Virus record (IMG/VR): IMGVR_UViG_3300029286_000005
Span: 1-40,791 of that record
From: a virus
Length of the DNA stretch: 40,791 nt
Direction: 5' to 3' (one strand)
The position numbers and the translations under genes are program-made. A model generated the notes under the pieces. It made no database searches. It was not told the origin of the DNA and saw only the letters and a program-made list of their open reading frames with translations. Each line of letters starts with the position of its first letter. The first letter of the stretch is position 1. Below, one piece after another: positions 3,601 to 40,791 of this stretch.

Positions 3601-3680
3601 GTACATTAAATTAACATATAATATACTCCTTACTAGGAGAGAAGCTATAATTTTAATATATATTCTACAAAAAACAAGTG

Positions 3681-3707
3681 TTTAAATACATTAAATATAA
3701 TTTGTAT
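3681..3707 (+). promoter_or_regulatory. TATA box plus dyad operator for the SPFH gene
   Basis: TTTAAATA at 3681-3688 lies 27 bases before ATG 3711, the leaderless spacing. Overlapping and following it is a dyad, ATACA (3686-3690), 12 bases, TGTAT (3703-3707). The same arrangement with the same 12-base gap occurs before the recombinase gene (4841-4867), so a shared repressor or activator is likely. Confidence 0.65.
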
Positions 3708-3710
3708 ACT

Positions 3711-4562
3711 ATGAATAAGGAATATGATGATAGATTAAGTCGAGATATTAGGACTGCAAAGGTTATTGTATTCGGAATTATTGCTGGAATTATTTTACTT
3801 ATTATTCTATTTGGAACTTTTTATACAATATCTGCCGGATATAGAGGAGTTATTTTAACATTTGGAAAGCCTAGCGTAACTTCTATGGGTGAAGGATTGC
3901 ATTTTAAGATCCCTTTAGTTCAGAAAGTTGTTAAGATGGACACTAGAACTCAAAAGTATGAAGCGGATTTGACTGCTGCATCTTCAGATTTGCAGGATGT
4001 TAAAACTAAAATTGCTATTAACTATCATCTAAATCCTGAAAGTGTTCCTGAACTTTATAGAACAATTGGAGTAGATTATGCAACGAAGGTTATTTATCCT
4101 TTAGAACAAGAAAGTAATAAGGCTGCAACTGCCCAATTTAGTGCTGTTGAATTAATTACTAAGAGAGAACAGGTTAGAGAAAGCATGAAGACAACTTTAA
4201 GAGATAAACTTTCTGAAAGAGGAATAATTATTGAGGATATTTCTATTGTTGATTTTGCATTTAGCCCTTCATTCTCTCAAGCTATTGAAGCAAAGGTTAC
4301 AGCAGAACAAAATGCGCTTGCAGCTAAAAATAAGCTCGAGCAAGTTAAATATGAAGCTGAACAAAGAGTAACTCAAGCAGAAGGAGAAGCCAAAGCAATT
4401 CAAATTCAAACTTCTGCAATTAATTCTCAAGGAGGAGAAAGTTATGTTCAATTACAAATGATTAAACAATGGAATGGACAATTACCTTATTCAACCGGAG
4501 GAAGTTCAATTTTTGATATGAGAAGCGTTTTAGCATTCGAGAATTCAACAAAAGCAAAATAA
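3711..4562 (+). CDS. SPFH-domain protein (stomatin/prohibitin/HflC-like)
   Basis: A 283-aa membrane-anchored protein. A TM helix at about 17-38 is followed by the SPFH/Band 7 domain, recognisable by the early AGYRGVILTFGKP and the EGLHFKIPLVQKVVKMDTRTQ block, then a helical region with an EAKVTAEQNALAAKNKLEQ-type coiled coil and an AEGEAKA signature. Family members oligomerise in membranes and scaffold proteases or membrane domains. A longer frame opens with GTG at 3678, but that lies upstream of the TATA box, so ATG 3711 is chosen. An SPFH protein on a small mobile element is unusual and may act in membrane remodelling or virion assembly. Confidence 0.9.
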   Translation: MNKEYDDRLSRDIRTAKVIVFGIIAGIILLIILFGTFYTISAGYRGVILTFGKPSVTSMGEGLHFKIPLVQKVVKMDTRTQKYEADLTAASSDLQDVKTKIAINYHLNPESVPELYRTIGVDYATKVIYPLEQESNKAATAQFSAVELITKREQVRESMKTTLRDKLSERGIIIEDISIVDFAFSPSFSQAIEAKVTAEQNALAAKNKLEQVKYEAEQRVTQAEGEAKAIQIQTSAINSQGGESYVQLQMIKQWNGQLPYSTGGSSIFDMRSVLAFENSTKAK

Positions 4563-4812: not shown

Positions 4813-4840
4813 TTAAAGAACATTTTTTAATATACAAATG

Positions 4841-4867
4841 TTTATATACATAAAATATATTTTGTAT
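4841..4867 (+). promoter_or_regulatory. TATA box plus dyad operator for the recombinase gene
   Basis: TTTATATA at 4841-4848 predicts transcription from about 4870, leaving a leader of about 16 bases that contains GAGG (4874-4877), 8 bases before ATG 4886. The dyad ATACA (4846-4850), 12 bases, TGTAT (4863-4867) matches that at 3686-3707, and the surrounding 33 bases are also similar. Confidence 0.65.
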
Positions 4868-4885
4868 AGTAAAGAGGATTACCCA

Positions 4886-5587
4886 ATGTCTAAAAAAATA
4901 GGTGATAAAAGCGATCTCTTGACTAAGCAAGAGATGGATAAATTAATGATTTCTGTTAGCGGAGATATTTATTTTACTACATTCTATAAGGTATTACTAA
5001 ATTCAGGAAGAAGAACTGGAGAAATATATGGAACCTTGAGAGGAAAGGAACTCACTGGAGGAATTAGAGTTAAGGACATTGATTTTGTTAATAAACAAAT
5101 GACTACTAATATTTTAAAGACTAAGAAGAGGAGACTCCAAGTTGAATGCCCTGCATGCAAGGAGAAAGCCACCTACAAGAGCAAATTCTGTCCGAACTGC
5201 GGTTTTACATTACCTGAAATAAATAAGGACGAATTATATTATTCTGCTATGGAAACTAAAATAATTCCTTTGAAAGACGATTTGATTGTTCTCCTGGAAA
5301 ATTATATTAAAAAACAGAAGTTAGGCATGAATGATTATTTGTTTAGAGAGTTTTCATTATCTTATTTGAAGAAAGCAATTAAAACTCATTGCAGAAGAGC
5401 CGGGATTACCAGGAACTTTTCTTTGCATGGGTTCAGAGCTTACTTCATAACCGCTTGTAAGAGGGCAAATTTGTCAAATGAAGAGATCGCCCTATGGACC
5501 GGACACATTTCACCAGTTTCAGTAAATGCCTATAATAGAATGATGCCTAAAGAAATTGAGGGAAAAATCTTGGATGTGGAATTATAA
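4886..5587 (+). CDS. Tyrosine recombinase/integrase with inserted zinc ribbon
   Basis: A 233-aa protein that is essentially only the catalytic domain. The expected active-site set is visible: R43 (SGRRTGE), K80 in the beta-hairpin, H181 and R184 (HGFR), H207 (GHISP) and Y216 (NAYNRM). Between the lysine strand and the rest lies a CxxC...CxxC zinc ribbon (C88, C91, C102, C105). The usual N-terminal core-binding domain is missing, so the ribbon or a partner may provide DNA contacts. The start at 4886 was chosen over ATG 4838 because the latter precedes the TATA box. It could catalyse integration, dimer resolution or inversion; no attachment site was recognised. Confidence 0.9.
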   Translation: MSKKIGDKSDLLTKQEMDKLMISVSGDIYFTTFYKVLLNSGRRTGEIYGTLRGKELTGGIRVKDIDFVNKQMTTNILKTKKRRLQVECPACKEKATYKSKFCPNCGFTLPEINKDELYYSAMETKIIPLKDDLIVLLENYIKKQKLGMNDYLFREFSLSYLKKAIKTHCRRAGITRNFSLHGFRAYFITACKRANLSNEEIALWTGHISPVSVNAYNRMMPKEIEGKILDVEL

Positions 5588-11720: not shown

Positions 11721-12257
11721 TTAATCTGTTACATCTTTATAGATTGAATACATAATTCCAACTGCTGCTCCAAATAATAATAGAGCCATAAATCCACCTA
11801 GCATATTCATTATTGAACTTCCCCAACTACTGTTTATGTAATTAGGTCCGCAATAATTGTATGTTGCGTAAGTATTGTTATTAGCCATTGGCAGCGTTGC
11901 TACTGCATGAGCACTATTAACTAAAGTGTATGTTCCTGCATTTAAGTCTGCAACATAATCTGTTGTATCTGTAAATGCTACTCCGCTTGAGTTCTTCAAA
12001 GCGAAATTTGTTATAGGACAATCACTTCCGTAAGTTGTTCCTGCATTAGTCAATGTATAAGTTATTGTTGGATTAATATCTGTAGTATTTCTTCCAGTTG
12101 CATAAGTCGGTAATACATTATGAACTTCAGAAGTTGCTGTAGATTTTATTGTTGTTCCATAGCTTGCATCTGCAACTACTCCAACAATTACTGCTCCAAA
12201 TAACATTAACACTGCTGCTAGAATTATCTTACCTAATAATCCGGTATTTTCTTTCAT
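11721..12257 (-). CDS. Two-helix membrane protein with inserted ectodomain (MCP paralogue)
   Basis: A 178-aa protein with an N-terminal hydrophobic helix (about 8-28), a Thr/Asn-rich ectodomain (30-140) with two cysteines and sequons, and a C-terminal helix. The last 36 residues align with the 76-aa protein at 29875-30105: SSWG, then a GGF or PGF turn, then GIMYSIYKD against GLYTVFRQA. The two therefore look like relatives, this one carrying an extra loop domain. GGAGG lies about 11 bases before the ATG. In spindle-shaped archaeal viruses the coat is built from such two-helix proteins, and this could be a minor coat or spike-base version. Confidence 0.75.
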   Translation of the reverse strand: MKENTGLLGKIILAAVLMLFGAVIVGVVADASYGTTIKSTATSEVHNVLPTYATGRNTTDINPTITYTLTNAGTTYGSDCPITNFALKNSSGVAFTDTTDYVADLNAGTYTLVNSAHAVATLPMANNNTYATYNYCGPNYINSSWGSSIMNMLGGFMALLLFGAAVGIMYSIYKDVTD

Positions 12258-14029: not shown

Positions 14030-17000
14030 TTATGAACCAGTTCTCCCACTTCTTAAAGTTATTATTCCCATTATTATCCATGAATATAAAGCAACTACAT
14101 ACTGGTCGAAGAAAGGCAAGAATGTTGCTCCTTGAACTGTTAGTAATCCTGTTATACTAATTATTGTTAATAGGAATGGTAATATCCAAACAAAGTATCC
14201 TGGATTATATAAATCATATTGGAAGCCAACATTTGTTGCTGCGCCAAATATTGCTATAGATAAGAATACTATAACTATAATTGAGAACTCCCATCTTCTT
14301 GCATCATCACTTGGTCCCCAAAAGCAAACAGTAGAAGCTGCCGGATCATCTGTTCCTGCACCATTTGCTTCACAAGCTACTTGTGTTGTTAAGTCTTCAC
14401 AAGATTTATCTCCATTATAAATTGTTCTGTGACAAGAATTATTCCCACTGCTATCAACTCCCCAAGAACTTCTATCTCCTAATAGATTTAAGAAACTAAG
14501 TAAACTTCCTTGACTTCCATTTACAGATATTGCTCTCCAATTTCCATCACTCTCTAATAATTGATAACCACTTCCCATATCAACATAATATCTTCCAAAC
14601 AAAACTTCTCCTGACTTTACTAAATAAAGAATACTTAGATTAGCACTTGAAGTACAAGCAGAACTAGCAGTTTGTAAAACAGAACCACTAGAGTTTGTTA
14701 ATTCAAATTTGCAATTAACCATATTTCCTTTTGTAGAAGTTACATTGAAAGTAAATAATGTGCTTATTGGATTAATAACTCCTGAAGATGGAGTTTTTAT
14801 ATATGAAACTCCCTCGATAGGACTTACAAAAGTTGCATTGCCTGTTTGAGAACTCATAATAATTGTATAGATAGACTGTGTTGGTCTAATTGTTACTGTT
14901 TGAGTAACATATCCTGCCTTAGTTGTTGTGTATCTATGGTCATAATTTGGATTAAGCCAAAATGTAGATAGTCCTGAACTATCAGTTGTTCCCTGTTCTA
15001 CAACAGTCCAATTTCCATTGAATTGTCTTTCAACTAAAATCTCAACACCTGAAATTGCATTTCCAGTATTAGTTGCTGTCTGTATACTTGAATAAATTCC
15101 CGTTGCTGTTGATAACAAATATAAAACTTGATTTTTAGTTGTATTTGTTAATGTTTCACTTGCATAATAATGTCTTTGAGGATAATTTGTATAAGAGTAT
15201 TGAAGATATTTTGCTTCTGTAACAACACTTTTATCTGCTGGAGAAAAACAAAAAGCATAACTTGGATTTGCAGTTGTATTTGTAAATAGATATTGTTTAG
15301 AAGCTGAAGTTACAAGTCCATAATTCTGTGTAAGTAAATCTATTGAAGCATTCATTGCAAGTCCTGTTGCCTCGTCTTTGAATGTATAATTAATGTAAGG
15401 AGTTCTTCCAGGATTTACAGAATAATAATCCCAAGTAAATATTTGATTATCTTCTTCTGTTCCACCATTTATTCCTTTTATAATATTAAAATAAGGCGTT
15501 GAGATTGGTGTTGTTAAACTAGTATTCCCTGCAAGGTTCATTGAAGCTCCACCTTTATCTGCAACAATTCTATATGATGTTCCTGCAACTAAACTATAAT
15601 TTATTTGGGCTACATTACCAACGAAATTAGCAGTAACTAAATCTGAAGTTCCATCTGCAGTTTGAAGATATGCAACTGTTGCATCACTAGCACTATTTTT
15701 AGTTACAGTTCCCAATGTAAAATTATTCTTTACAGTTATTTTTGTTCCATATTTAGCCGCGTTAGGAGAACCAATTGCTCCAATAGAATATCCATCATCA
15801 ACATCTAAAATAACTGGACATAAACCAAACATTATTGGATTAACTATTTGGCTATAATCACTTGAATTATATTCTGTTGTTCCATAATAAATTTGCCAAT
15901 GAAATGTTTTGTTTACTGCTGATGATGCACTCGGCATAGTTATTGTTTTATTAAAGATTGCATTTGTATTATCTCCAGTATTAGTTGCAGCATAAGATGT
16001 TCCATCATAAATTAAATTTGCAGTCAAAGCACTTCCTGCACCAGTAACATTTAAAGTAAATGTTTCTGACATTGTTTCATAAGTGTTAATATTATAGGTT
16101 GCAGAATTTATTTTTACATCTTGAGCAAGAATCCTATTTATATTAGAATCTACACAATTACCTAATGAATCGCAATACTTGACATACCAATTATAAATTC
16201 CAACTCCTAAACTAGAAAAATTGTGATTGAATATTGTTTCATTAGAAACTCCTGAAATTAATTTTGTTTCATTATAGCAATTACAATTATAATTAAATTC
16301 TAAATCAAAACTTCCTCCTAAAATATTATTAATAAAAATTGTTGCATTAACTAAACTATTTGGACTTGATGCAGTTGTATTGAATGTTACATTTTCATTT
16401 ATTAAAAATAGTGAATTATTGCTTGGTGAGTTTGAAGATACATATAAACTTCCAAAAGTAATTCCATTTCCATTATTATAAAGTTTTGTTACTTCGCTAG
16501 AGTTTAATGTTCTATTCCAAATAGCTACTTCATCCATACCTCCATTCCATAAATAGTTTTCTGTATTAAAATATCCTGCTCCAAGTATAGGTAAATAATC
16601 ATTTGATATAACTGGATTAGCTCCAACTGAATTTTTTACTGCTACTGAACCCAAACTTCCATTTTGATAAAAAATCCATCCACTATTATATAATCCTCCA
16701 GTATAAACAAAAACAACATGAACCCACTGATTGTAAATTATTGGTGCAGAAGTAGTTTTCATAGCTCTTATGTTACTACCTGTTTCCTGAAAATACATAT
16801 TAAAATTATTTGCGTCAAGTGTATCTATAGCAAAGAAAGTTGCAGCACCACTAGCAAGTCCTTTACCAATAATTCCTTCTTCATAATCTTGTGCATCTGC
16901 AACATGATATATCCACATACTAATTGTAAAGTTTTGGTCACCTTTGAATAAATAATCAAAGTTTGCTTCATTAGTTATATTTAACATATTTAAATTTACA

Positions 17001-17260
17001 GAACTAAGATTAACTGCATTGTTTACTTTTCCTGAATAGAATTTTGGAGGTGGAGTTCCTGATTGTGTTGCATTATTTATTCCTAATGAATCATAAACCA
17101 ATGTTGAACTATTTGTATTCATAGAATAATAAGAAACAAGTCCATTGCTTAGTTCTGCATCCCAAGCATAAGCACTGACACTTGCAACTAAGAACATACT
17201 TACAAATAATATTAATAGTAACTTCTTCATTTGATTACTTCTATGTTTGCCTTTCGCCAT
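14030..17260 (-). CDS. Large LamG-domain spike/adhesin with C-terminal TM helices
   Basis: A 1076-aa protein. A signal peptide (about 11-30, KKLLLILFVSMFLVASVSA) is followed by a LamG/concanavalin-type domain (about 31-270: LVSYYSMN...VYDSLG, then ISMWIYH, NQWVHVVFVY and DEVAIWNRTL are typical), then several Ig-like or beta-sandwich segments rich in Asn, Thr and Ser (270-900), a carboxypeptidase-regulatory-like stretch (SGVEILVERQFNG...), a cysteine-bearing segment (about 960-1000) and three TM helices at the end. Such proteins bind glycans on cell surfaces, so a virion spike or adhesin is the best reading. ATG 17260 has AGAGG close upstream; the in-frame ATG at 17230 is the alternative. Confidence 0.88.
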   Translation of the reverse strand: MAKGKHRSNQMKKLLLILFVSMFLVASVSAYAWDAELSNGLVSYYSMNTNSSTLVYDSLGINNATQSGTPPPKFYSGKVNNAVNLSSVNLNMLNITNEANFDYLFKGDQNFTISMWIYHVADAQDYEEGIIGKGLASGAATFFAIDTLDANNFNMYFQETGSNIRAMKTTSAPIIYNQWVHVVFVYTGGLYNSGWIFYQNGSLGSVAVKNSVGANPVISNDYLPILGAGYFNTENYLWNGGMDEVAIWNRTLNSSEVTKLYNNGNGITFGSLYVSSNSPSNNSLFLINENVTFNTTASSPNSLVNATIFINNILGGSFDLEFNYNCNCYNETKLISGVSNETIFNHNFSSLGVGIYNWYVKYCDSLGNCVDSNINRILAQDVKINSATYNINTYETMSETFTLNVTGAGSALTANLIYDGTSYAATNTGDNTNAIFNKTITMPSASSAVNKTFHWQIYYGTTEYNSSDYSQIVNPIMFGLCPVILDVDDGYSIGAIGSPNAAKYGTKITVKNNFTLGTVTKNSASDATVAYLQTADGTSDLVTANFVGNVAQINYSLVAGTSYRIVADKGGASMNLAGNTSLTTPISTPYFNIIKGINGGTEEDNQIFTWDYYSVNPGRTPYINYTFKDEATGLAMNASIDLLTQNYGLVTSASKQYLFTNTTANPSYAFCFSPADKSVVTEAKYLQYSYTNYPQRHYYASETLTNTTKNQVLYLLSTATGIYSSIQTATNTGNAISGVEILVERQFNGNWTVVEQGTTDSSGLSTFWLNPNYDHRYTTTKAGYVTQTVTIRPTQSIYTIIMSSQTGNATFVSPIEGVSYIKTPSSGVINPISTLFTFNVTSTKGNMVNCKFELTNSSGSVLQTASSACTSSANLSILYLVKSGEVLFGRYYVDMGSGYQLLESDGNWRAISVNGSQGSLLSFLNLLGDRSSWGVDSSGNNSCHRTIYNGDKSCEDLTTQVACEANGAGTDDPAASTVCFWGPSDDARRWEFSIIVIVFLSIAIFGAATNVGFQYDLYNPGYFVWILPFLLTIISITGLLTVQGATFLPFFDQYVVALYSWIIMGIITLRSGRTGS

Positions 17261-17281: not shown

Positions 17282-17662
17282 CTAACCTCCGTAATATGGC
17301 TGTGACTGTTGACTTTTCCCATAAAGAATATACATGATTACTCCTAACAATACTGCTAAAACTAGATAAGGTAGATATAACTTAATACCTAGACAGCCAA
17401 TTGTAGATTTTGTTCCTATTGTTGCATTGTAACTTAATACATTAGTTGGATCTCCATTGTAAGAATAACCCTTACAATTAAGTCCTTCACTATTTTGTGC
17501 AACATCTAATATCTCTACAAATCCTGGAATTAACGATACTAACATTGCCACTGCCATAAATCCCATGATAAGTGCAATCATAAGGTGAGCCATATCCATT
17601 TGTGCCTTTTTTTGTTTAGGCATTAATAATGGTGATAACCAACTTCTTTTAATCTCTTTCAT
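17282..17662 (-). CDS. Two-helix protein with pilin-like signal
   Basis: A 126-aa protein; an in-frame ATG at 17686 would add eight residues. After a basic N-terminus comes KKAQMDMAHLMIALIMGF, which resembles the class III (type IV pilin-like) signal of archaea, leading into a hydrophobic helix. An ectodomain of about 45 residues with two cysteines follows, then a second TM helix and a Gln/Tyr/Gly tail. The two-helix plan resembles the coat-like proteins of this element, but residue similarity is weak. It sits just before the LamG spike gene in the operon. Confidence 0.72.
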   Translation of the reverse strand: MKEIKRSWLSPLLMPKQKKAQMDMAHLMIALIMGFMAVAMLVSLIPGFVEILDVAQNSEGLNCKGYSYNGDPTNVLSYNATIGTKSTIGCLGIKLYLPYLVLAVLLGVIMYILYGKSQQSQPYYGG

Positions 17663-17828
17663 GATAAACCCTATGACATTTTCCACCTATGAAAATCTTT
17701 TGATTTCCAGGTGTGGCTTTAAACATATTTGTTCTACCAACTTTCAAACCAGTTTTAGTATTCATATGCCCATATGCAGTCCATTTTCTGTATGCTTCTT
17801 TACTTGCGAAATGTTTAACTCCTTTCAT
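17649..17828 (-). CDS. Small basic protein (59 aa)
   Basis: A 59-aa basic protein (VKHFASKEAYRKWTAYGHMN, TKTGLKVGRT, then a strand-like GNQKIFIGGKCHRVYH). The KxFxSKEAYRKWxAYGH pattern recurs in small phage and archaeal virus proteins as I remember them, with no known function. GGGAGG (17836-17841) is seven bases before the ATG. It overlaps the pilin-like gene by 14 bases. Confidence 0.66.
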   Translation of the reverse strand: MKGVKHFASKEAYRKWTAYGHMNTKTGLKVGRTNMFKATPGNQKIFIGGKCHRVYHERD

Positions 17829-17933: not shown

Positions 17934-18101
17934 TTACCATTTACCTTTCTCCCTGTATTCTTTCTTAATACAATTCTTAGGAACTTTAATTTGAATATTA
18001 GCTGGAACTTTGATAAACATCCTCTTAGGAATATTAACTGAAGTCTGTCCGTTTCTATGATTAGTAAATACTTTTAGATTAATCTTAAATGGGTTTTTCA
18101 T
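17934..18101 (-). CDS. Small basic protein (55 aa)
   Basis: A 55-aa strongly basic protein (NPFKINLKVFTNHRNGQ, then VNIPKRMFIKVPANIQIKVPKN and a KKEYREKGKW end), strand-rich with one cysteine. Its ATG overlaps the stop of the 1123-aa gene (ATGA), so it is translationally coupled to it. Function unknown. Confidence 0.62.
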   Translation of the reverse strand: MKNPFKINLKVFTNHRNGQTSVNIPKRMFIKVPANIQIKVPKNCIKKEYREKGKW

Positions 18102-21100
18102 AATCTTAATCCTCCCTGATTAAATACTTTATATGATTTTCTTGATTGAATAATATTTTTTCTTTCTGCAATACTAGATAATCTTCTAGGCGCTTTCTGA
18201 ACCAATATACCGCTTCCTTTTCCTAATCTAAACTCTTCGCTTGGTGCAAGAGGAATAAATCCACCCTTGCCTGTCTTAATCCTAAATGAAGCACCTAGAG
18301 TTTGTCTTGCAGCCTGTTTACCTATAATAATTCCTTGAGAGACATTTGTAACCTTTGCTATTGGCATAAATTTACCTCTACGCCTGAATTCAACTGTTAA
18401 TGCAGTTGAACGAGTTTTTGGAACTACCTTTGCTTGTCTCAATGGATTTTTATTATTGTCTGAAATAGTTACAGGAATTTCAAATCTAGGTGTTCTAGGA
18501 ATATTAAAAGAAGATTGTGCATATCTACCTCTATATCCTTGATTTACTTTCATATCAACTTTTCCAATAAGATTTTGAACTAATTGAGTATTCAATTTTG
18601 ATTGGGACTTAGTTTCTATCAATGATACTTCGACAGGTTTCAATACTTGGCTTTCTTTTGTAACTCCACCTAATCCTAATTTAGTTTCTGTCTTTGTAAT
18701 TAAACCTGTAGTTAAGTATTGATTTTGTTTTGTTTCAGATTTAGTTTGTTCTTTTGTAGATGGTAAAGCATTAACTCCTGAAACTTTAGCTAACACAACC
18801 GAAGTAGTTCCTAAACTTACTTTAGCTGGAACATTTTGCATAAACATTTTTGTATCAACTTTGGGAATAGTTGAGATAGTTGAAACCTTTGTTGGAGTTA
18901 TTCGGCTAACCGAAGGACTTATTTGTTTTAAATCTTGTTTAGCTGCTTGAGTTAACTGTTTAGTAATCTGCAATGCTTCTTGCTTTTGAGCCTGTCCTGG
19001 TTTAAATACTCCTCCACCATAGGTCTCTTTAACTTTAATTTTAAAAGGATCTTCAAACTTTTCAGTAGCTATTCTCTTAAACTTTCCAGGATAAGCAATA
19101 TTCTTTGCCGGAGTCATTTCAAATGATTTTGCTGTTCTTAATCTCCCAACAGTTCCACTTGTTTCAAATGTATCAAATATTAATCCAGGAGTGGTTCTAG
19201 CTCCTATTGTCTTTGTTTCTATATTCCCTAATCCCTTTTGATATTTTAAAGTTCTAATAATTCCTGTTTCAGGAACTTGGAAATTTGTTATTCTCTTTAC
19301 TGAAAAACTCTCTAATCTTTTAGGCATTTCAAATATTTGTCTTGATAATGTATTTACATTAGTCAATGTTCTTCTTCCTTGTATACTTACTTTTGGAGGA
19401 ACCATATCAACTCTAATTACTCCGGGTTTTCTATTTGTTAAAAATACTTTAGGAGGTTCAACTTTAACACTTGATTTTAATCTAACATCTTTTCCAACTG
19501 CTCGCTGTCCATAAAAGCTAGATTTTAAATCTGCATCAATAAAATCCTGTGCTGTCTTTGGAATTCTTGTTACTCTTTGTTTTCCCTCTATCCCTATTCC
19601 TTTTCCTATACCTTCATATTTTGTCTGTTCACTTATTGTTTTAAATCCTCTTGTTCTAACTCCAGGAATTCTAGCAGAAGAAATATCTACATTAGCATTC
19701 ATTTCTAATTTTATTCCTCTTTGCCCAATAGTTGCTGTCTTTGTTCCAAATATAGTATATTCGGGAATTTTAGGCGCAGAAAATCTTAATGTTTGTCCTA
19801 TTTCTTTCTTACCCATTCCTGTTCCCTGCAATAATTCTATGGCTGCTTTTCTTGCGCCAGCAGTCCCATACTTTGTTTCAGCATAAACTATCTTGGGAGT
19901 TGCACCAAAGAACTTTGCTACTGGAGAAGGAGTTCTTGATATTTCAAAACCTCTACCTACTTGAATTGTTCTAGGAAGTAGTCCTGCTTCTCCTGTTTCT
20001 AAAATACTTTGAGTTGTTGGATAACCTTTAAACTTTCCAAAAATTTCATAAGTTAATCTTGTTTCAGAACCAGCTCCAGTTTCTATTCTTTGAATTGTTT
20101 TTGGAACTTGATTTACTCTTGGAGTAACGGTCTTCTCAAAATAATTTATCTCTTTAATTTGTGCAGAACCTAAGAATGGTTTTGCAACGATTGGAGTAAC
20201 TAAAGGCAAAGCAGTTATCCCTGTCATTATTCCTCTATTAATTCTCTCTTGAGCCGATAGTTCTCTTGGTGTTAATGTTGAAGCTACTCCAGCAGAAAGT
20301 AATCCAACTGGTCCTAATAATAATTCTCCTGCAGTTAATCCTGCACCATATCCAACAAACTCTCCAACAGTTCTTCCAAGTTCTTCACTACTTCCTTGGC
20401 TTATTGTAGCCGGACCCATTATTCCTGGAATACCTTGGGTAGTTGTTGTTTTAGTTGGAACAGTCTGTAATCTATCTAATTGACCTCCAACATATCCTCC
20501 GACAGCTCCTCCAACTCCTCCTGAAATTGAAGGTAAATCTACAAATAAAGTTTCTCCAACATCTCCAGCAAACCTTGCTTGTTCTTGTAATTGTCTAGCG
20601 CTAGGAATATTTAATCCAACAGGACTTGGAAGACTAAATCCAATTCCAGGAACAACATCATAGGCAGAAACTCCCTGTTTACTTCTTAATATATCTCTAT
20701 AGACTTCTTGATAACTTGGAATAAGGATACCACTCTTTCCTCCACCACTTGTGCCTCTTTTTATAGTAGCTTGTAATTGTTCAAAAGGTGTTGCTACTTC
20801 TAAAGAAGAACCTGAATATCTAGGAATAGGAATAGGTTTATTAGACTGATAAAGAATTCCAGTATTTACTAACTTCTGAATATTTTCAGGTGAATAATAT
20901 TTATTAACAACATTACCTAATTTATCAACTGTGTAACTCATTCCAACATTAGCGTCTTGAAAACCAGTAACTTGTCCATTATTTATTATAGGAGTTAATC
21001 CCACATTAAGTAACTCCTGTTGAGTAACTTCTCTTGCTGCAGGTGGTGTTACATAACTTCCACCTCCTCCTCCAATTAAAGTAGTTCCAGCTGGTGCTGT

Positions 21101-21469
21101 TGGAGTAGAGTATTTATTTCCTGAAGAGTCTGTATAGGTTCCTGTTGAACTATCATAGGTTGGTGTTTGAAATCTATCTACTGGTGGTGTGAATGGATTT
21201 GATCCTCCGCTTGAACCTCCTGAACTTCCACCTCCTCCTCCACCTGAAGGAGTTGTTGGTTTTGTAAATGGGTTTGTTGGTGGTGTGAATGGATTTGAAG
21301 AAGTATTTGTTGATGATGATGTTTGTTGAGGTGGTTGAGACTGAGGTTGAGAACCAATTCTATTCTGTGATATGGGTGTAGCTGACACTGTTGGTCTAGG
21401 TCCAACCATTCCCGCTACAGCCTGCCCAGCTGATTTTCCAGCATTAATAGCAGAAGAAATTATATTCAT
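18098..21469 (-). CDS. Giant Gly/Pro/Ser-rich virion-type protein
   Basis: A 1123-aa protein, the largest in the element. Residues 30-140 are low complexity (Pro, Ser, Gly, with NPFTPP repeats and Gly6 and Gly5 runs). About 310-335 is a glycine zipper (SGGVGGAVGGYVGGQ), and about 370-435 holds long hydrophobic or amphipathic segments (GYGAGLTAGELLLGPVG), which could insert in membranes. The remaining 650 residues are basic, strand-rich and repetitive in feel (many KT, TR and IPxT stretches). Nothing enzymatic is seen. Length, position and membrane-active centre suggest a minor virion protein acting in entry or as an internal matrix, but this is inference. Confidence 0.72.
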   Translation of the reverse strand: MNIISSAINAGKSAGQAVAGMVGPRPTVSATPISQNRIGSQPQSQPPQQTSSSTNTSSNPFTPPTNPFTKPTTPSGGGGGGSSGGSSGGSNPFTPPVDRFQTPTYDSSTGTYTDSSGNKYSTPTAPAGTTLIGGGGGSYVTPPAAREVTQQELLNVGLTPIINNGQVTGFQDANVGMSYTVDKLGNVVNKYYSPENIQKLVNTGILYQSNKPIPIPRYSGSSLEVATPFEQLQATIKRGTSGGGKSGILIPSYQEVYRDILRSKQGVSAYDVVPGIGFSLPSPVGLNIPSARQLQEQARFAGDVGETLFVDLPSISGGVGGAVGGYVGGQLDRLQTVPTKTTTTQGIPGIMGPATISQGSSEELGRTVGEFVGYGAGLTAGELLLGPVGLLSAGVASTLTPRELSAQERINRGIMTGITALPLVTPIVAKPFLGSAQIKEINYFEKTVTPRVNQVPKTIQRIETGAGSETRLTYEIFGKFKGYPTTQSILETGEAGLLPRTIQVGRGFEISRTPSPVAKFFGATPKIVYAETKYGTAGARKAAIELLQGTGMGKKEIGQTLRFSAPKIPEYTIFGTKTATIGQRGIKLEMNANVDISSARIPGVRTRGFKTISEQTKYEGIGKGIGIEGKQRVTRIPKTAQDFIDADLKSSFYGQRAVGKDVRLKSSVKVEPPKVFLTNRKPGVIRVDMVPPKVSIQGRRTLTNVNTLSRQIFEMPKRLESFSVKRITNFQVPETGIIRTLKYQKGLGNIETKTIGARTTPGLIFDTFETSGTVGRLRTAKSFEMTPAKNIAYPGKFKRIATEKFEDPFKIKVKETYGGGVFKPGQAQKQEALQITKQLTQAAKQDLKQISPSVSRITPTKVSTISTIPKVDTKMFMQNVPAKVSLGTTSVVLAKVSGVNALPSTKEQTKSETKQNQYLTTGLITKTETKLGLGGVTKESQVLKPVEVSLIETKSQSKLNTQLVQNLIGKVDMKVNQGYRGRYAQSSFNIPRTPRFEIPVTISDNNKNPLRQAKVVPKTRSTALTVEFRRRGKFMPIAKVTNVSQGIIIGKQAARQTLGASFRIKTGKGGFIPLAPSEEFRLGKGSGILVQKAPRRLSSIAERKNIIQSRKSYKVFNQGGLRL

Positions 21470-23230: not shown

Positions 23231-23830
23231 CTATCCTCCTTTAAAAAACAAAAAGAAACCAATTGCGGCTGCAATTAATATTGCAATAACAATTATTACT
23301 CCCTTGTTCATTTGTTGTTTAGCTTTTTCCATTACAGCTTTTGTAACCATCTTAACTAATATCTCGTCGCTGTCTGTACTGTCTCCTCTTGCTTTGACTT
23401 CATCCCAATCTAAATTAGAAACTGGGCGTCTATCAATTTCTCTTATGATAACACATTTGATTATCTTCTTTCCAAGACGAGTAGTCCAACAAGCTCTAGG
23501 GTCGAACTCATAAGCCTTATGCTTCCAAATAATTATGTTCCCGGAATATAGTGGAACTAATCTTGGCGGTTCAATTTCTCCCTTGATATTAAGATACAAC
23601 ATTAGAACTTTATCTTCTGATGCTTTTGCATTAGTAGATTTCTTCATAGCACCTTTCCATTTGTAAGGATACTTGAATGGCTTTTCTTTTTCTTCAGTAT
23701 CTACTTTTAACTTCCCTAGTCTTAAACCCTCTTCAACTTGTCTCAATCTATCGTTGATGTTAGTTTTAGTTTCTAACTTGCTTGAGGTTGCTCGGGTTGT
23801 TGTGAATTGTCCTTTCCGAATATTCTCCAT
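23231..23830 (-). CDS. Tail-anchored soluble protein
   Basis: A 199-aa protein with a 170-residue cytoplasmic part (basic N-terminus; strand-rich KVLMLYLNIKGEIEPPRLVPL, IIWKHKAYEFDPRACWTTRLGKK, KCVIIREIDRRPVSNLDWDE) and a single C-terminal TM helix (about 176-197). Tail-anchored topology places it on the inner face of a membrane, in a virion between envelope and genome. It overlaps the preceding gene by 58 bases, the longest overlap in the block. Family not recognised. Confidence 0.72.
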   Translation of the reverse strand: MENIRKGQFTTTRATSSKLETKTNINDRLRQVEEGLRLGKLKVDTEEKEKPFKYPYKWKGAMKKSTNAKASEDKVLMLYLNIKGEIEPPRLVPLYSGNIIIWKHKAYEFDPRACWTTRLGKKIIKCVIIREIDRRPVSNLDWDEVKARGDSTDSDEILVKMVTKAVMEKAKQQMNKGVIIVIAILIAAAIGFFLFFKGG

Positions 23831-24267
23831 TTTGGTTTTGCCGGGTTTAGATTATTAACCAATGAACCGCGATAAGCAGCTTTCTTGGAAGTAACAAAGA
23901 GTTCTACAAACCATCCTTTCTTACCCATACTTGTTGCGAGAGTTATTTCTCCTGTGCCTGTAAAGTAATCTGCAAAAATATCATGATGAAATAGTTTTCC
24001 TAAAAGAGCAATCCTTTGACAATCTCTAACAGAAATTCCTAAATCTCCAAGTTCTCTTCCATCAAGATTAGCAACTTTGCTAGAGTCCTTTGCTCTCCAA
24101 ACATCTTTAAATAACGAGAATAAACTTTCAGGCTTTCTTGCACCAGGTAAGTTTGAACCAGTTTGTTCTTCCCATACTTCCCTTTGCTCGTCGAAGTAAT
24201 TATCTTTTAATTCATCTTCTTCAGTATAGGGAGTATCCTCTACTTTAGTATCGTCTGGGTAATCCAT
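23773..24267 (-). CDS. Soluble helical protein
   Basis: A 164-aa protein: an acidic N-terminus (1-40, many Asp and Glu), a helical central domain (FSLFKDVWRAKDSSKVANLDGRELG...SVRDCQRIALLGKLF) and a Gln/Pro-rich end. The central pattern resembles uncharacterised proteins of mobile elements, but I cannot name the family. It may pair with the tail-anchored protein whose gene overlaps its end. Its GGAGG lies an unusual 25 bases or so upstream of the ATG. Confidence 0.68.
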   Translation of the reverse strand: MDYPDDTKVEDTPYTEEDELKDNYFDEQREVWEEQTGSNLPGARKPESLFSLFKDVWRAKDSSKVANLDGRELGDLGISVRDCQRIALLGKLFHHDIFADYFTGTGEITLATSMGKKGWFVELFVTSKKAAYRGSLVNNLNPAKPKWRIFGKDNSQQPEQPQAS

Positions 24268-24307
24268 TGAATATTAATTCTAAACCTTTAATCCTCCTTT
24301 CATTTTT

Positions 24308-24925
24308 CTAATCATCACTTCCTCCCCCCATAATTCCTAAATCAGTATAGAACATTTCTACTATTGCTATGAAGCAAACCGAGAGTCCAATCCCTAAAGT
24401 AATAAATGAAATTGCTCTTGTATAATCATCTGCAAAACTTCCAAGTCCATAGATCATCATATAGATACCAGCAACAATAAATAGCATTCCTGAAAACAAT
24501 CCTATATATTCATTCTTTAAATAAGAAGCAAAACCAAATATAATAAATGCACCAAGAAGTAAAAAGAGAGGTAGAGTATTCCCATTGTCTCTTCCAGTAG
24601 TTGTAATTGTAAAATCATAAACCCAATTTGTTTTTATTCCATCTTCGTCACATTGTCCGTAAACATAATAAGGACCTAGTTCTTTTGTATTAGAAAAAGT
24701 ATAATCATAATCATCTCCATTCTTAGTCATTGCTGTTTGTGTGTTAAGCGCAAACGAACCATTTGGATAAGTTACTCTAGTTATGTTTGCATAAGTTGAG
24801 TTAACACAATTCTGTATTAAGTTAACTGACTTTCCTTGTTGCTTTTCCCCAAGAGAAGTTATTTGACTTGCACTTACTAAACCTAAACATAAAACTATAG
24901 TCAACACAAATAATATCTGTTTCAT
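24308..24925 (-). CDS. Signal peptide, beta-domain and four-TM membrane protein
   Basis: A 205-aa protein: a signal peptide (1-19, ending GLVSA), a beta-sandwich-like ectodomain (20-115: QGKSVNLIQNCVNSTYANITRVTYPNGS..., two cysteines) and four TM helices (about 117-133, 138-157, 165-185 and 178-200, the last two closely packed). The VNLxQxCxNxTYxNITxxxYPNG opening recurs in virus- and phage-linked metagenomic proteins as I remember them. Probably an envelope protein. A leaderless-type promoter precedes it. Confidence 0.75.
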   Translation of the reverse strand: MKQILFVLTIVLCLGLVSASQITSLGEKQQGKSVNLIQNCVNSTYANITRVTYPNGSFALNTQTAMTKNGDDYDYTFSNTKELGPYYVYGQCDEDGIKTNWVYDFTITTTGRDNGNTLPLFLLLGAFIIFGFASYLKNEYIGLFSGMLFIVAGIYMMIYGLGSFADDYTRAISFITLGIGLSVCFIAIVEMFYTDLGIMGGGSDD

Positions 24926-27621: not shown

Positions 27622-29814
27622 TTATCCTGTTAAATATAGACCACTGGAATTTGCACAAATGCTATGATTTATTGTTAAGTCACAAGCTCCACTGATTTCA
27701 TTCATTATTTGAAGAGAAACATTTGTAATATTATTAGTTCCCATATTTAAATTACCATTCATGCTTCTTGTTCCATCTGTAAGTAAATATTGAGTATGGT
27801 CATCATCTAAAAGTCCAGTTAATACTCCATGGTCTGTAGCAACATAAGTTCCACTTGGAAGATTTGAAACAGAACGCAAATCCTGAACATCTGAAACAGT
27901 TGGAGCAGATACTCCATTTCTTCTCATAATAACTCTATAAAGCAATTTATATTCAGGAATGTCTAAAGTTCCTAAACTCATACTCTCCCATTTATTATTT
28001 AACTGTGCATTTGCAAGAGTAACATCTGTTCTTTGTCCCATGATTAAATAAGTTGGAACATCTCTATCTACAGATTCTATAACCCAATAAGCAACATACT
28101 GATTATTTGTTACATCCGCAGTACCAGTAAGAGTGTCATATTGAATTACATCTGAAATATTATAATACAAATCTTTTGTGTAATTTTGGAAATTATATCT
28201 TCCTGTTGCAGTATGGAAAAATATCCTAGAAGCATTTTGAATTGGATTAGTATCTATATTATCTTCATCTGCAATAGTTCCACTTGTCATGTTCCAGTTC
28301 TTAGGGTCACTAAATAATCCTGTAAAACCACTTACATATCTAGTTCCAACAGTTGAATGTAAATAATAATGAGTTGCACTATCCATAGTTACTCCATGTC
28401 TTTCTTTTCCAATTATTCCCATTGAACCATTCCAAAATACAGTTGCTACCTGAATAACATTTTCAAAATCATTACCCCATGGAGTTTGGCTTGTTGTTAA
28501 TACATCTCCACTTAAAGCATTAAAATAAATATAATTAGTATAACCTGCATCATTAGGAATTATAACTGAATCAGAAGTTGTTTTATGAATCTTTCTTCCT
28601 TTAAAATAAATATAATAATCTCCACTTATTGTAAAGTTTCTAAGAGAGTTATCAAAAGAAAGAACTGAATTGAATGTACTTTGTTGTGAAAATCCTGTTG
28701 GTTCTTTTGTTGCATTGTAAATATCATCAGTCCAGTTTGCTCCTGAACCATAATAATAATATGCTGTTACATTTTGAGGAGTATTAATATTATTATCAAC
28801 TGTTAAAGTTCCATGAAGAATCGAGTTACCAGTTAATTCTAAAGCATAAGTAACTCCTGATAAAATAACTTCTGTTACTCCATTAGTAAAATATCCTGCT
28901 TGTTGCCCAATAGCATTTCCTATTATTCCATAATAACCATAACCAAATATTCCTATTCCTTCTGCATCTACATTTCCTGTAGTGTTAAAATCTCCTGAAC
29001 CATTAAAATTATTATTAGTAAAATTATATTGAGCATAAGATTGACAGTTACTTCCATTTTGTAAACAAACATCTGTAAGAGTTGAACCATTCCCAACAAA
29101 TCTTGTAGCAATTACATTTCCATTATTAAATAAAGCATTTCCTCCTGCCGAATATATTTGGTAATTATTTGAAGAACCTGCTGTTAAATCTTCCAAATAT
29201 ATTCCATACATATTTGTTATCCCTGAACCTTGAGGTTTAGCAAGATAAATATCATACATATTAGAAATAGCTCCACTGTTTATTGTAGCTCTTTGATATT
29301 CTCCATAAAAATTAGACATTGTTCCTGAACTAGAATATATTGGAGCTATCTGAACACCTGAATAATGATTATAATTATTTGTTCCAGTAAATTCAACTCT
29401 ACTATCAAAAGAATTATAAGCTATCCCACCACTTCTTGTTATTATGGAATCATCTGCAAAACCATGTCCGTTTCCACTTACATCATCATTAACACTTCTT
29501 GCAAGTAATATTTTGCTATCTCCACTATAATCAGGGTTACTTCCAACTTTTATATATCCTGTTGTTGTTAAATTAAAAGAACCTGCTTTATTTCCTGTAA
29601 GTCCTGTTTGGTCTTCATATGCTTTCCAAAAGTCAGTGGGAACATATCCCTGAAAATAATAAGTGTCATTTGCAGAAGTTCCGTTTGGAATTATTGGAGA
29701 AGAAAGAGCTGAAGTGTCTTTTCTTACTAAAGGAATATTTGGATTGTCAATTAGTGGAGCCGATATTAAACCAACTCCTAAGATGATTATAAAAAAAAGA
29801 ATAGGGAGTTTCAT
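27622..29814 (-). CDS. Phage-tail-fibre-like protein with signal peptide
   Basis: A 730-aa protein: a signal peptide (1-19, ending GLISA), then repeated beta-rich fibre segments (NSGAISNMYDIYLAKPQ...ITNMYGIYLEDLTAG, GNALFNNGNVIATRFVGNG), a middle with NNINTPQNVTAYYYYG, and a C-terminal DHGVLTGLLDDDHTQYLLTD, the DHTQY motif widespread in tailed-phage fibres, followed by NLNMGTNNITNV repeats. A phage-type fibre carrying a Sec signal is unusual and implies membrane insertion before assembly. GGGAGGAG (29822-29829) is seven bases before the ATG. Confidence 0.85.
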   Translation of the reverse strand: MKLPILFFIIILGVGLISAPLIDNPNIPLVRKDTSALSSPIIPNGTSANDTYYFQGYVPTDFWKAYEDQTGLTGNKAGSFNLTTTGYIKVGSNPDYSGDSKILLARSVNDDVSGNGHGFADDSIITRSGGIAYNSFDSRVEFTGTNNYNHYSGVQIAPIYSSSGTMSNFYGEYQRATINSGAISNMYDIYLAKPQGSGITNMYGIYLEDLTAGSSNNYQIYSAGGNALFNNGNVIATRFVGNGSTLTDVCLQNGSNCQSYAQYNFTNNNFNGSGDFNTTGNVDAEGIGIFGYGYYGIIGNAIGQQAGYFTNGVTEVILSGVTYALELTGNSILHGTLTVDNNINTPQNVTAYYYYGSGANWTDDIYNATKEPTGFSQQSTFNSVLSFDNSLRNFTISGDYYIYFKGRKIHKTTSDSVIIPNDAGYTNYIYFNALSGDVLTTSQTPWGNDFENVIQVATVFWNGSMGIIGKERHGVTMDSATHYYLHSTVGTRYVSGFTGLFSDPKNWNMTSGTIADEDNIDTNPIQNASRIFFHTATGRYNFQNYTKDLYYNISDVIQYDTLTGTADVTNNQYVAYWVIESVDRDVPTYLIMGQRTDVTLANAQLNNKWESMSLGTLDIPEYKLLYRVIMRRNGVSAPTVSDVQDLRSVSNLPSGTYVATDHGVLTGLLDDDHTQYLLTDGTRSMNGNLNMGTNNITNVSLQIMNEISGACDLTINHSICANSSGLYLTG

Positions 29815-29874: not shown

Positions 29875-30105
29875 CTAAACTATTCCTGCTTGTCTAAATA
29901 CAGTGTATAATCCAGCTACAACAGTTCCTAAGATTATTAACGAGAAAAATCCGGGAACTAATTTAAGCACAGTTGCACCCCAACTAGAAGCGTTTGCTAA
30001 CGAACCTCCAGTAGCAGCTGCAGTATTAACTTGGTCTGCGATAGGACCAATTAATGATACACCAACTAGAACAGCAACGAAAATTGTAATGAATACAGCT
30101 ATCAT
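29875..30105 (-). CDS. Two-helix small membrane protein, candidate major capsid protein
   Basis: A 76-aa protein made of two hydrophobic helices (about 1-22 and 47-70) joined by an Ala/Ser/Gly-rich loop (NTAAATGGSLANASSWG). Size, topology and composition match the major coat proteins of spindle-shaped archaeal viruses (SSV1 VP1-type, two hydrophobic helices), though those families diverge too fast for a firm call by eye. It resembles the C-terminal end of the 11721-12257 protein and the N-terminal half of the 33646-33993 protein. First gene of the late block, it is preceded by GGAGGAG 25 bases upstream and followed by a T-rich terminator, consistent with high expression. Confidence 0.72.
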   Translation of the reverse strand: MIAVFITIFVAVLVGVSLIGPIADQVNTAAATGGSLANASSWGATVLKLVPGFFSLIILGTVVAGLYTVFRQAGIV

Positions 30106-33373: not shown

Positions 33374-33652
33374 ATGACAAATTATATAAACGGAAGAGCA
33401 AGAGAATATCGTATCATGAATAAACTTAAAGAAAAGGGTTGGGTAGTTTGTCGTACAGCTGGAAGCCATTCACCAATTGATCTCATAGCAATCAATCCAA
33501 AAGATATTAAAATTATTTTTATACAGTGCAAACCTAAGTCCATGTCAAACAAAGCAAAGGAGAGATTAGAGAAAGAGCATGCTTGGCTTAATAATGAATT
33601 CATTTGTAACTTTAAAGTTGTATCACTTGAGAAGGAGTTAGGTTTATGTTAG
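33374..33652 (+). CDS. Archaeal Holliday junction resolvase-like protein (Hjc-type)
   Basis: A 92-aa protein, shorter than typical Hjc (about 120-140 aa), but with the active-site set in order: E11 (GRAREYRIMNKL), R27 and S31 (CRTAGSHS), D36 (SPIDLIA), and Q51/K53 (FIQCKPK). Family members cut four-way DNA junctions. Here it would resolve replication or recombination intermediates, next to helicase and CoiA-like genes. It is followed by an overlapping gene (ATG 33646 inside its end). Confidence 0.85.
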   Translation: MTNYINGRAREYRIMNKLKEKGWVVCRTAGSHSPIDLIAINPKDIKIIFIQCKPKSMSNKAKERLEKEHAWLNNEFICNFKVVSLEKELGLC

Positions 33653-33993
33653 CACAGATAATGAGCGCATTTGTAATGATTATTGTTGCAGTTAGTTTAT
33701 ATCCTTTAATAGTTGAACAAGTTCAATCAGTTGCAGTTCAACAGAATGCAACTTCTACTTCATCAGAATTTGCAACAATGGCATTATCCACTTTTCCCTT
33801 ATTTTTTGCAATAGCTATGGGCGTTGCAATACTTGGAGTTGTTATAACAACTCTAAAAGGATTTTCAGATTATTCAGAAGATTATGAAGAAGAGAATGAA
33901 GATATTCCTGCGGAAGAGAAACCACACAAGCAAACTTATTTAGAATATGTCAAGGAGAGAATAGCGGCGCAAAAGCTAATTCATAATTCATAA
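33646..33993 (+). CDS. Two-helix membrane protein, MCP-like paralogue with acidic tail
   Basis: A 115-aa protein: hydrophobic helices at about 4-24 and 48-68, a polar Ser/Thr loop between them (QQNATSTSSEF), and an acidic then basic cytoplasmic tail (75-115). The segment VSLYPLIVEQVQSV closely follows VSLIGPIADQVNTA of the 76-aa coat-like protein at 29875-30105, at the same place after the first helix. It is therefore a likely relative placed in the replication arm, perhaps a membrane anchor for the replication or packaging machinery. GGAG lies eight bases before the ATG. Confidence 0.75.
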   Translation: MLAQIMSAFVMIIVAVSLYPLIVEQVQSVAVQQNATSTSSEFATMALSTFPLFFAIAMGVAILGVVITTLKGFSDYSEDYEEENEDIPAEEKPHKQTYLEYVKERIAAQKLIHNS

Positions 33994-37222: not shown

Positions 37223-37400
37223 TAACATTGAGTTAGTTGGATTAGGAATGATTATTCTTTCAGGTATGAATTTTCTAAATAGTCGTTGGAGTTTATTAAC
37301 ATTCGTAGAATTTGCAGCAGTTTGTTGGGGAACTTCTTATCTAATCAGTAAACCAAAAGAAAAAAAGAGGAAATATGTCACTGCATGTAACAAACATTAA
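37179..37400 (+). CDS. Small membrane protein, one to two TM helices
   Basis: A 73-aa protein: an amphipathic N-terminus, hydrophobic helices at about 17-31 and 38-56, and a basic end (KPKEKKRKYV). GGAGG lies nine bases before the ATG. It overlaps the ATPase gene by 26 bases, so the two are co-translated, and it may tether the ATPase to the membrane. Confidence 0.63.
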   Translation: MLTFEQALKKIWKNNNIELVGLGMIILSGMNFLNSRWSLLTFVEFAAVCWGTSYLISKPKEKKRKYVTACNKH

Positions 37401-38394
37401 GGGAACCTTTGATGATGGGAGAGAAGCAACTGGATTTTATATAGATGGATATTTATGTCATAACCTTTTAGGGATTACTGCTTACTTAAAAAAGAAATGG
37501 GATGTAGTTGCTATTGTTTCAGGACATGGAAAGGTTAGAGTTGGAAAATCTACGCTTGCTTTTCAAGTTGCTTCACTGATTGCTTGGATTAATGCTGGCG
37601 GAAGAATAGATATGGAGTTAGTTAAGAACACTCAAGGCAAAACAGGTTGGAAAGTTAACAAAGTTAAGAACCCAACCGAACCAATCAAGTTCTCTCTTGA
37701 AGAAAATGTTGTATTCAGTGCAATGGACTTAAAGAACACTGCAACGAAGCTGCATGAGAAGTATGGAAAGAACCAAATCATCATTTATGATGAAGGAAGA
37801 GAGGGTCTTGAAGGAGCACGAGCTATGGAAAACTTAAATAAAGTTATGCAAGACTTTTTCCAGGAGTGCGGTTACATGGGACACATAATTTTGATTGTTC
37901 TTCCAAACTATTTTAAACTTCATGAGGACTATTCGGTTAGCCGATCATTATTTTTGATAGATGCGTTCCATGACAAGCATAAGAAGAGAGGTTACTTCAA
38001 TTTTTACAATGAAACAGATAAAGAATGGTTATATTTTCTTGGAAAGAAAAGAATTGGGATAACTCAGAAGTATAAATCCCATAGAGAAACCTTTTGGGGA
38101 CGATTTACAAGCTGGTTTCCGTTTGATAGAGTGGAATATGAAAGATTAAAGGGTGAAGCATTAAAGAACAGGGCTAAAAGCAGGAGAGAAGTTCAATACA
38201 AGTTACATAGAGATGCTTTAGTGTATGCTATGCACTCAGAAATAGGAAAAATTCCCTGGACTGCTAAGAAAATTGCAGAAGTAATTGAAAAAATCTCCAA
38301 GCAACCTATTTCTGTGGACACAGTAGAAAAAATTAGTGAGATTATGCACAAAAAGGTTCAAGAAGAGACTGAGAACGAGGCAGAAACAACCTAA
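37375..38394 (+). CDS. P-loop ATPase, viral morphogenesis/packaging type
   Basis: A 339-aa protein. Walker A is GKVRVGKST (52-60) and Walker B is IIIYDE (135-140), followed by GREGLEGARAMENLNKVMQDFF and ILIVLPNYFKLHEDYSVSRS, with sensor-like polar residues. The pattern belongs to the Zot/FtsK-HerA-like group of ATPases found in phages and archaeal viruses that move DNA or assemble particles at membranes. The C-terminal 110 residues are basic and helical. No TM segment is visible, but the neighbouring small membrane protein could supply one. It is the strongest candidate for the genome-translocating motor. Confidence 0.82.
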   Translation: MSLHVTNIKGTFDDGREATGFYIDGYLCHNLLGITAYLKKKWDVVAIVSGHGKVRVGKSTLAFQVASLIAWINAGGRIDMELVKNTQGKTGWKVNKVKNPTEPIKFSLEENVVFSAMDLKNTATKLHEKYGKNQIIIYDEGREGLEGARAMENLNKVMQDFFQECGYMGHIILIVLPNYFKLHEDYSVSRSLFLIDAFHDKHKKRGYFNFYNETDKEWLYFLGKKRIGITQKYKSHRETFWGRFTSWFPFDRVEYERLKGEALKNRAKSRREVQYKLHRDALVYAMHSEIGKIPWTAKKIAEVIEKISKQPISVDTVEKISEIMHKKVQEETENEAETT

Positions 38395-40516: not shown

Positions 40517-40723
40517 ATGATAGGCAGAAATACTTTAAAAAAATATGAATTGAGAACTATCGAGGGATATTTTGATTTAATTATTGACAGTAAGATAAAC
40601 GGGAATTCTGATTATAAAGACTATATTAAAAAATTGAATAGAAAACAAAAACGATTATTTTTACGTTATATTATGAATAGAGAAGATTTATTTAAATTCT
40701 TTTTTGACGAGGTTTTAAAATAA
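40517..40723 (+). CDS. Hypothetical 68-aa helical protein
   Basis: A 68-aa basic, helical protein (NTLKKYELRTIEGYFDLI, then DYKDYIKKLNRKQKRLFLRYIMNREDLF). Its last 19 codons and stop recur at bases 1-59 because of the circular overlap, so the gene is complete and continuous with the gene at 61. Function unknown. Confidence 0.62.
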   Translation: MIGRNTLKKYELRTIEGYFDLIIDSKINGNSDYKDYIKKLNRKQKRLFLRYIMNREDLFKFFFDEVLK

Positions 40724-40791
40724 AATGGCTATGTTTGATTTTGGAAAAAGGCAGAAGTTACATACTCAACTAATAGGTTCAACAACAGGCA
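40665..40791. repeat. Terminal redundancy of a circular contig (copy 2)
   Basis: Exact second copy of bases 1-127. It carries the 3' end of the gene at 40517-40723 and the first 67 bases of the gene that begins at 61, so no gene is really broken by the window ends. The unit length after removing one copy is 40,664 bp. Confidence 0.93.

Follow-up and report, generated by a model that had tools for sequence, protein, structure and literature searches.

A fusellovirus VP1/VP3-type coat protein and two paralogues in a 40.7-kb virus probably of DPANN archaea

In the Sulfolobus spindle-shaped virus SSV1, the capsid consists mainly of VP1, which is essential, while VP3 is a minor, dispensable component whose loss gives particles of aberrant shape, and the virions seem to bud through the membrane (PMC5748691, PMC9608457); both proteins are glycosylated at N-X-S/T sequons (PMC9608457). 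The spindle-shaped viruses of Thermococcales, PAV1, TPV1 and candidate families, share a core that includes hydrophobic hairpin coats and concanavalin-like lectin proteins with transmembrane (TM) helices (PMC12934983). Three further families known from metagenomes, Huangdiviridae (Bathyarchaeia), Nipumfusiviridae (Nitrosopumilaceae) and Eurekaviridae (Methanosarcina), were recognised by their hairpin coats, with VP1 and VP3 in a huangdivirus and two coat copies in the Methanosarcina virus; going by the published descriptions, on which our likening of these families rests, their hosts differ from those of the virus group treated here. We analysed a virus record of 40,791 nt (IMGVR_UViG_3300029286_000005), the whole of which is called the window below, and compared its small hairpin proteins with those of the described systems.

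The 76-aa coat protein and its fusellovirus relatives

An earlier note on this DNA had proposed that the gene at 29875-30105 encodes a spindle-virus-type coat protein with two paralogues, one at 11721-12257 and one at 33646-33993. The positions given for all three proteins were correct, with the 76-aa and 178-aa proteins on the minus strand and the 115-aa protein on the plus strand, and the proposal of a spindle-virus-type coat was borne out for the type represented by SSV VP1 and VP3. Two PHROGs annotated as virion structural protein, 11172 (E 8.6e-6) and 5402 (E 2.4e-5), match the 76-aa protein, and the same two match all 11 members of its coat family (best E 1.3e-6 and 1.7e-11), one of which also matches Pfam VP1_VP3 (E 5.6e-4). 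Searched by tblastn at a permissive limit against 50,697 phage records, the protein matched 55, all but one of them (54/55) Sulfolobales spindle viruses, and the matches fell at VP1 wherever the gene was named (best E 6e-4). The sole credible match of the coat profile among 177,635 distinct PDB sequences was 7xdi (E 1.8e-5), which is SSV19 VP1 (PMC10866085), and hhalign aligned the coat family with fusellovirus VP1/VP3 over 71 of 76 columns at 97.3% (E 2.4e-11). These sequence and profile matches place the 76-aa protein in the VP1/VP3 coat family of Sulfolobus spindle-shaped viruses. The earlier note had named His1 among the coats for comparison as well, and here the comparison failed: VP21 of His1 (Halspiviridae), a 73-aa coat with two TM segments and, like the window coat, SSW near the loop, was rejected as a relative at the level of significance, its 5.2 bits being reached by 194 of 2,000 shuffles and hhalign giving 70%. 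A 354-aa match in a further genome (G062) was discarded as a false positive, a multi-TM enzyme-like protein.

Homologues 58-68% identical to the 76-aa protein occur in six other contigs, four from IMG/VR (L002/G001, L003/G002, L007/G003 and L008/G005) and two from binned genomes (L024/G006, Pacearchaeota archaeon, and L025/G007, Mycoplasmatota), and a more distant homologue of 72 aa (36 bits) lies in G268, which belongs to the phylum of G006, 1.5 kb from the gene of the group's ATPase. In pairwise comparisons dN stays far lower than dS (window versus L003, dN 0.27 and dS 1.50), and the codon comparisons mark the 76-aa reading frame as a real gene under purifying selection. Hydropathy gives two hydrophobic segments, residues 1-26 and 41-71, and the AlphaFold2 model is a helical hairpin with helices at 2-31 and 41-73 (pLDDT 80), the short polar turn of which holds an N-X-S/T sequon, N38 (NAS). 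Foldseek searches of this model against PDB and BFVD gave no significant match, 7xdi included; a two-helix fold is too simple for an informative search of this kind, and the null was counted neither for nor against.

The likeness to fusellovirus VP1/VP3 (SSV1, SSV19, SSV22, SMF1; PF06281, PHROG 5402/11172) extends from the two hydrophobic helices to the common segments GV.L..(I)..(Q/E)V and AT(L/V)L.LVP.F, the sequon at the turn and the confinement of length variation to the loop, although identity is mostly 34-38%. Unlike SSV1 VP1, the window coat has no cleaved N-terminal prosegment and starts about where mature VP1 starts, positions 69-131 of PHROG 11172 aligning to its residues 2-64; a long prosegment is absent also from SSV1 VP3 and from SMF1 VP1 as annotated, and is therefore not diagnostic for the family. 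Bacilliform particles too are built of hydrophobic alpha-hairpin coats, a spindle-type coat having matched both SSV19 VP1 and the APBV1 coat (PMC10866085), and predicted bacilliform viruses of Thermococcales have the same fold (PMC12934983), so that a coat of this family might also form a rod, bacilliform or pleomorphic virion. We consider this unlikely, as the similarity found here is specific to fusellovirus VP1/VP3, whose virions are spindles, and a spindle is the shape that we favour.

The gene directly downstream of the coat gene (27622-29814, minus strand) encodes a 730-aa fibre-like protein with a signal-like N-terminus; it had no Pfam match and has the motif DDDHTQYLL in common with a 1035-aa protein of L003. 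In four relatives, as in the window, the coat gene or genes are followed by a large fibre-like gene. The coat genes themselves stand in tandem in L002 (76 and 94 aa), in L007 (76 and 76 aa) and in L025, which holds two full copies plus the last part of another, an arrangement that resembles VP1-VP3 of Fuselloviridae. The two copies of L002 differ at 8 synonymous and 2 amino-acid-changing codons among 63 helix codons, while their loops are largely different, one being 18 residues longer and carrying two cysteines. Codon differences of this kind indicate constraint on the coat helices and freedom in the turn, a pattern also seen between SSV VP1 and VP3.

A paralogue with a domain inserted between the helices

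The minus-strand gene at 11721-12257 encodes a 178-aa protein in which a domain of about 100 aa, predicted to be beta-rich and N-glycosylatable, lies between helix 1 and helix 2 of a coat-like hairpin. The earlier note had described an inserted glycosylatable ectodomain and a segment shared with the 76-aa protein, and both descriptions hold: four N-X-S/T sequons (57, 89, 127 and 142) lie between the helices, and BLASTP aligns residues 40-72 of the 76-aa protein (SSWGATVLKLVPGFFSLIILGTVVAGLYTVFRQ) to residues 143-175 of the longer one (E 5e-8 in a single comparison). Neither the 178-aa nor the 115-aa protein, used alone as query, matched anything in the viral contigs; it was the coat profile that retrieved the relatives' copies of the 178-aa form. 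Orthologues of 170-187 aa, 29-36% identical to the window copy, are present in G001, G002, G006 and G007, that is, in all four relatives in which the relevant region is sequenced, always well away from the coat gene. The duplication is probably older than the virus group, given that the form is carried by the window virus and by all four of these relatives. The window, G001 and G007 also agree in gene order here: the 178-aa form is preceded by a large surface protein, a multi-TM protein of about 150 aa, a protein of about 90 aa and a basic protein, with one extra gene in between in G007.

In the window that late block includes a 1076-aa surface glycoprotein (14030-17260, minus strand) with a concanavalin-A-like Laminin_G_3 domain (PF13385, E 5e-17) and hydrophobic C-terminal segments, which parallels, by published description, the lectin proteins of the Thermococcales viruses (PMC12934983). 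A conserved late module of 205-, 164- and 199-aa proteins (23231-24925, minus strand) is likewise common to the relatives. At 18098-21469 (minus strand) lies a 1123-aa protein with a Gly/Pro/Ser-rich, low-complexity N-terminus and no Pfam match; the relatives have comparable large proteins at its place.

How much of the 178-aa protein derives from the coat can be judged from its two halves. Both halves of the coat are found in the expected order in all five members of the family; the second is matched in all five, and in G007 the final 40 residues match the end of the coat with 40 bits, whereas the first is significant alone only in G001. There, model positions 4-32 fall at residues 8-36 and positions 39-64 at residues 144-169, and each half scores alone. 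Full-length scores against the coat profile reach 25-46 bits in four of the five members, two of which independently match PHROG 5402 (best E 4.6e-5); without the coat family as an intermediate, hhalign of the 178-aa family against fusellovirus VP1/VP3 is weak (31%). An unrelated secreted membrane protein that gained helix 2 of the coat through recombination, or grew similar to it, would fit the facts that hhalign of the family covers only the C-terminal 36-39 columns and that helix 1 of the window copy alone scores a non-significant 1.6-2.2 bits against the coat profile. Such an origin is improbable in our judgement, because helix 1 alone does match the coat profile in G001 (E 8.7e-4 among 2,203 ORFs) and more weakly in G006 (E 0.029), in the expected order, and because of the full-length scores of the four members. 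The interpretation that we prefer on this sequence evidence is that the 178-aa protein is a duplicate of the hairpin coat with a domain inserted between the helices.

The fold of the inserted region is predicted at low confidence (model pLDDT 63). Foldseek returned weak matches only, the best being the phage tail proteins 8vhx (E 0.026) and 6xgr (E 0.057), and two members of the family match PHROG 807, 'major tail protein with Ig-like domain' (best E 2e-4); taken together, these matches give a hint that the modelled ectodomain may be Ig-like. The 178-aa form is the extreme of the loop-variation trend seen among the coat genes, and it is an extra of the window virus with respect to Fuselloviridae. 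We know of no earlier description, among spindle viruses, of a coat paralogue whose exposed turn carries an added domain; the new element here is the conserved coat paralogue that carries an inserted ectodomain.

Further hairpin proteins and controls for membrane composition

The second paralogue, of 115 aa (33646-33993, plus strand), can be aligned to the coat over both helices and, as the earlier note had it, carries an acidic stretch after helix 2 as a C-terminal tail. The similarity to the 76-aa protein that had been noticed at its start was recovered by BLASTP over residues 1-66 and 1-70 (VSLIGPIADQV and VSLYPLIVEQV; E 2e-8). This protein was found in the window virus only. Its gene begins within the 3' end of a Hjc-like resolvase gene (PF01870, above the gathering score), and it belongs to a plus-strand replication cluster with a D5-type helicase and the ATPase. 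In L024, two small proteins with two TM segments are encoded among apparent early genes (3892-4116 and 4155-4400); the first is similar to that genome's coat (E 2.5e-6), its C-terminal helix being near to that of the coat, and the second is similar to the first (E 1.8e-6). Given these proteins of L024, diverged coat copies among early genes may recur.

A possible fourth hairpin member is a 134-aa protein with two TM segments (17282-17686, minus strand), which is conserved in the group, has two conserved cysteines in the loop and, in most orthologues, a prepilin-like motif of the KKAQ/KKGQ/NRGQ type before helix 1. Its score against the coat HMM is borderline (10 bits, reached by 6 of 2,000 shuffles) and hhalign against the coat family gives 57% (E 1.1e-4) over both helices; it is put forward as a putative coat paralogue, a candidate only.

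The position of the 115-aa copy and of the two coat-like proteins of L024 among early genes would suit a non-structural function, for instance as holins or superinfection-exclusion proteins; small proteins with two TM segments are common, and a holin PHROG is matched by two of the 11 coat family members (best E 0.01). For the hairpin proteins as a set we regard this as very improbable, in that the structural PHROGs match all members at far better E-values, the known members of the family are proven virion proteins, and the 76-aa gene lies beside the fibre-like gene in the late block.

That the two proteins are paralogues of the 76-aa coat is supported by profile searches with controls suited to short membrane proteins. 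Against all ORFs of the window, a coat HMM placed the 76-aa protein at the top, followed in order by the 115-aa protein (34.5 bits, E 1.6e-10, over both helices), the 178-aa protein (26.0 bits, E 7.5e-8) and the 134-aa protein. With the window protein left out of the HMM, and with 2,203 ORFs searched, 251 of which carry two or more TM-like segments, the scores were 32.2 and 24.7 bits, within the range of fusellovirus VP1 and VP3. As a control, each protein was shuffled locally 2,000 times with its hydrophobic segments kept roughly in place; with the first coat HMM, not one shuffle reached the real score of the 115-aa or of the 178-aa protein (0/2,000 each), and the real scores of SSV22 VP1, SMF1 VP1 and SSV1 VP3 were likewise never reached, while reversed sequences scored low. 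The earlier note had allowed that the HMM alignments might prove no better than between random TM proteins, and they proved far better: hhalign of the coat family gave 97.0% with the 115-aa protein and 97.4% with the 178-aa family, compared with 0.1-0.3% for three unrelated TM families of the same viruses. Convergence from hydrophobic composition, a fair concern for short TM proteins as a class prone to inflated E-values, is left with a negligible probability by the shuffles, the low scores of reversed sequences and the control families, and the similarity among the three proteins, as judged from their sequences, exceeds what chance or shared membrane composition would produce.

The virus group, its hosts and the proposed roles of the coat copies

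The window begins and ends with a perfect direct terminal repeat of 127 nt (1-127 identical to 40665-40791), and because of it the record most likely represents the whole of a circular genome, 40,664 bp (about 40.7 kb) in length. Fuselloviridae are defined by a small circular genome and a fusellovirus core gene set; the fuselloviruses matched by tblastn have genomes of 11-19 kb, and the ATPase, the 178-aa protein and the 115-aa protein found no match in the phage records, which leaves the coat as the sole fusellovirus link among the genes tested. Neither the size of the genome nor the genes tested agree with Fuselloviridae, and we keep the virus out of that family; its gene content indicates that it is no fusellovirus. 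Two other genes were noted in passing. One (3678-4562, plus strand) encodes an SPFH/Band 7 (stomatin-like) membrane protein (Pfam E 2e-35), an unusual cargo for a virus, and the other (4838-5587, plus strand) a tyrosine recombinase in which residues 100-126 form an internal segment like a zinc ribbon.

Fuselloviruses have hosts among Sulfolobales. Relatives of the window virus were found in the Pacearchaeota MAG and in genomes of the same phylum. The marker used for related viruses and proviruses was the P-loop ATPase of the group (37375-38394, plus strand), which is present in five of 371 genomes of that phylum; in G019 its gene lies on a 218-kb contig beside resolvase-like and helicase-like genes, with an arginyl-tRNA-synthetase-like gene near (names given by eye from sequence). 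The ATPase homologue of G268 (L040:14353-16521, minus strand), at 722 aa, is roughly double the normal size and contains, behind the P-loop region, an insert that resembles an intein. For L024, whose known part is viral-looking throughout, the binning as Pacearchaeota is the sole link to a host. L025 (JAUVLT010000015.1) is a contig with an archaeal-virus gene set binned to a Mycoplasmatota MAG; because it carries the same virus gene set, misbinning is likely and the label was rejected as host evidence. One of the IMG/VR contigs, IMGVR_UViG_3300020045_008360, encodes bacteriophage-like proteins at one end (L019; G003:1-8700) and may be chimeric. DNA searches of the 371 genomes for host signals returned mainly short AT-rich noise plus the viral helicase. 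The binning of L024 and the ATPase genes of the phylum suggest that the hosts of the group are probably DPANN archaea, which are tiny symbionts, the host of the window virus itself being inferred from its relatives. We found no described spindle virus of DPANN archaea in the literature searched, which was limited to open-access papers.

We hold it to be highly likely that the 76-aa protein is the major coat of a shell of the SSV VP1/VP3 type, the 178-aa protein an ancient duplicate and the 115-aa protein a diverged one. Spindle shape, virion incorporation, glycosylation, budding and the roles of both paralogues are what we infer from the sequences by analogy with SSV1, and the following pathway can be envisioned. 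The 76-aa hairpin would be inserted in the membrane and packed in many copies into the virion wall, with its turn exposed and, by homology with SSV1, N-glycosylated at N38. Assembly of the wall would probably coincide with budding of the particle across the host membrane, as in SSV1, and since the 76-aa protein starts about where mature VP1 starts, it would need no cleavage of a prosegment. The 178-aa protein, having kept the hairpin, would sit in the same wall or membrane and display its glycosylated beta-rich domain outside, at the turn; it would most likely be a minor surface or receptor-contact subunit, host-cell contact being the best guess because the glycosylated turn of known family members faces outward. 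The 115-aa protein may have a part in tuning assembly, or a function inside the infected cell.

A broader reading, which we offer as speculative and rather doubtful, is that an undescribed family of DPANN spindle viruses has made a toolkit of the coat hairpin, with a shell form in one to three tandem copies, an Ig-like receptor spike, an early acidic-tailed form and a prepilin-like form with cysteines in the loop. If it were true, the virus would make spikes from its own lattice subunit. The findings extend the SSV-type coat to viruses of roughly 37-46 kb, probably of DPANN archaea, and make two questions testable, that of receptor-binding features on spindle shells and that of the reach of the fusellovirus coat lineage across archaea. 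They also illustrate a way in which the shell subunit of a spindle virus could be turned into features of the virion surface.
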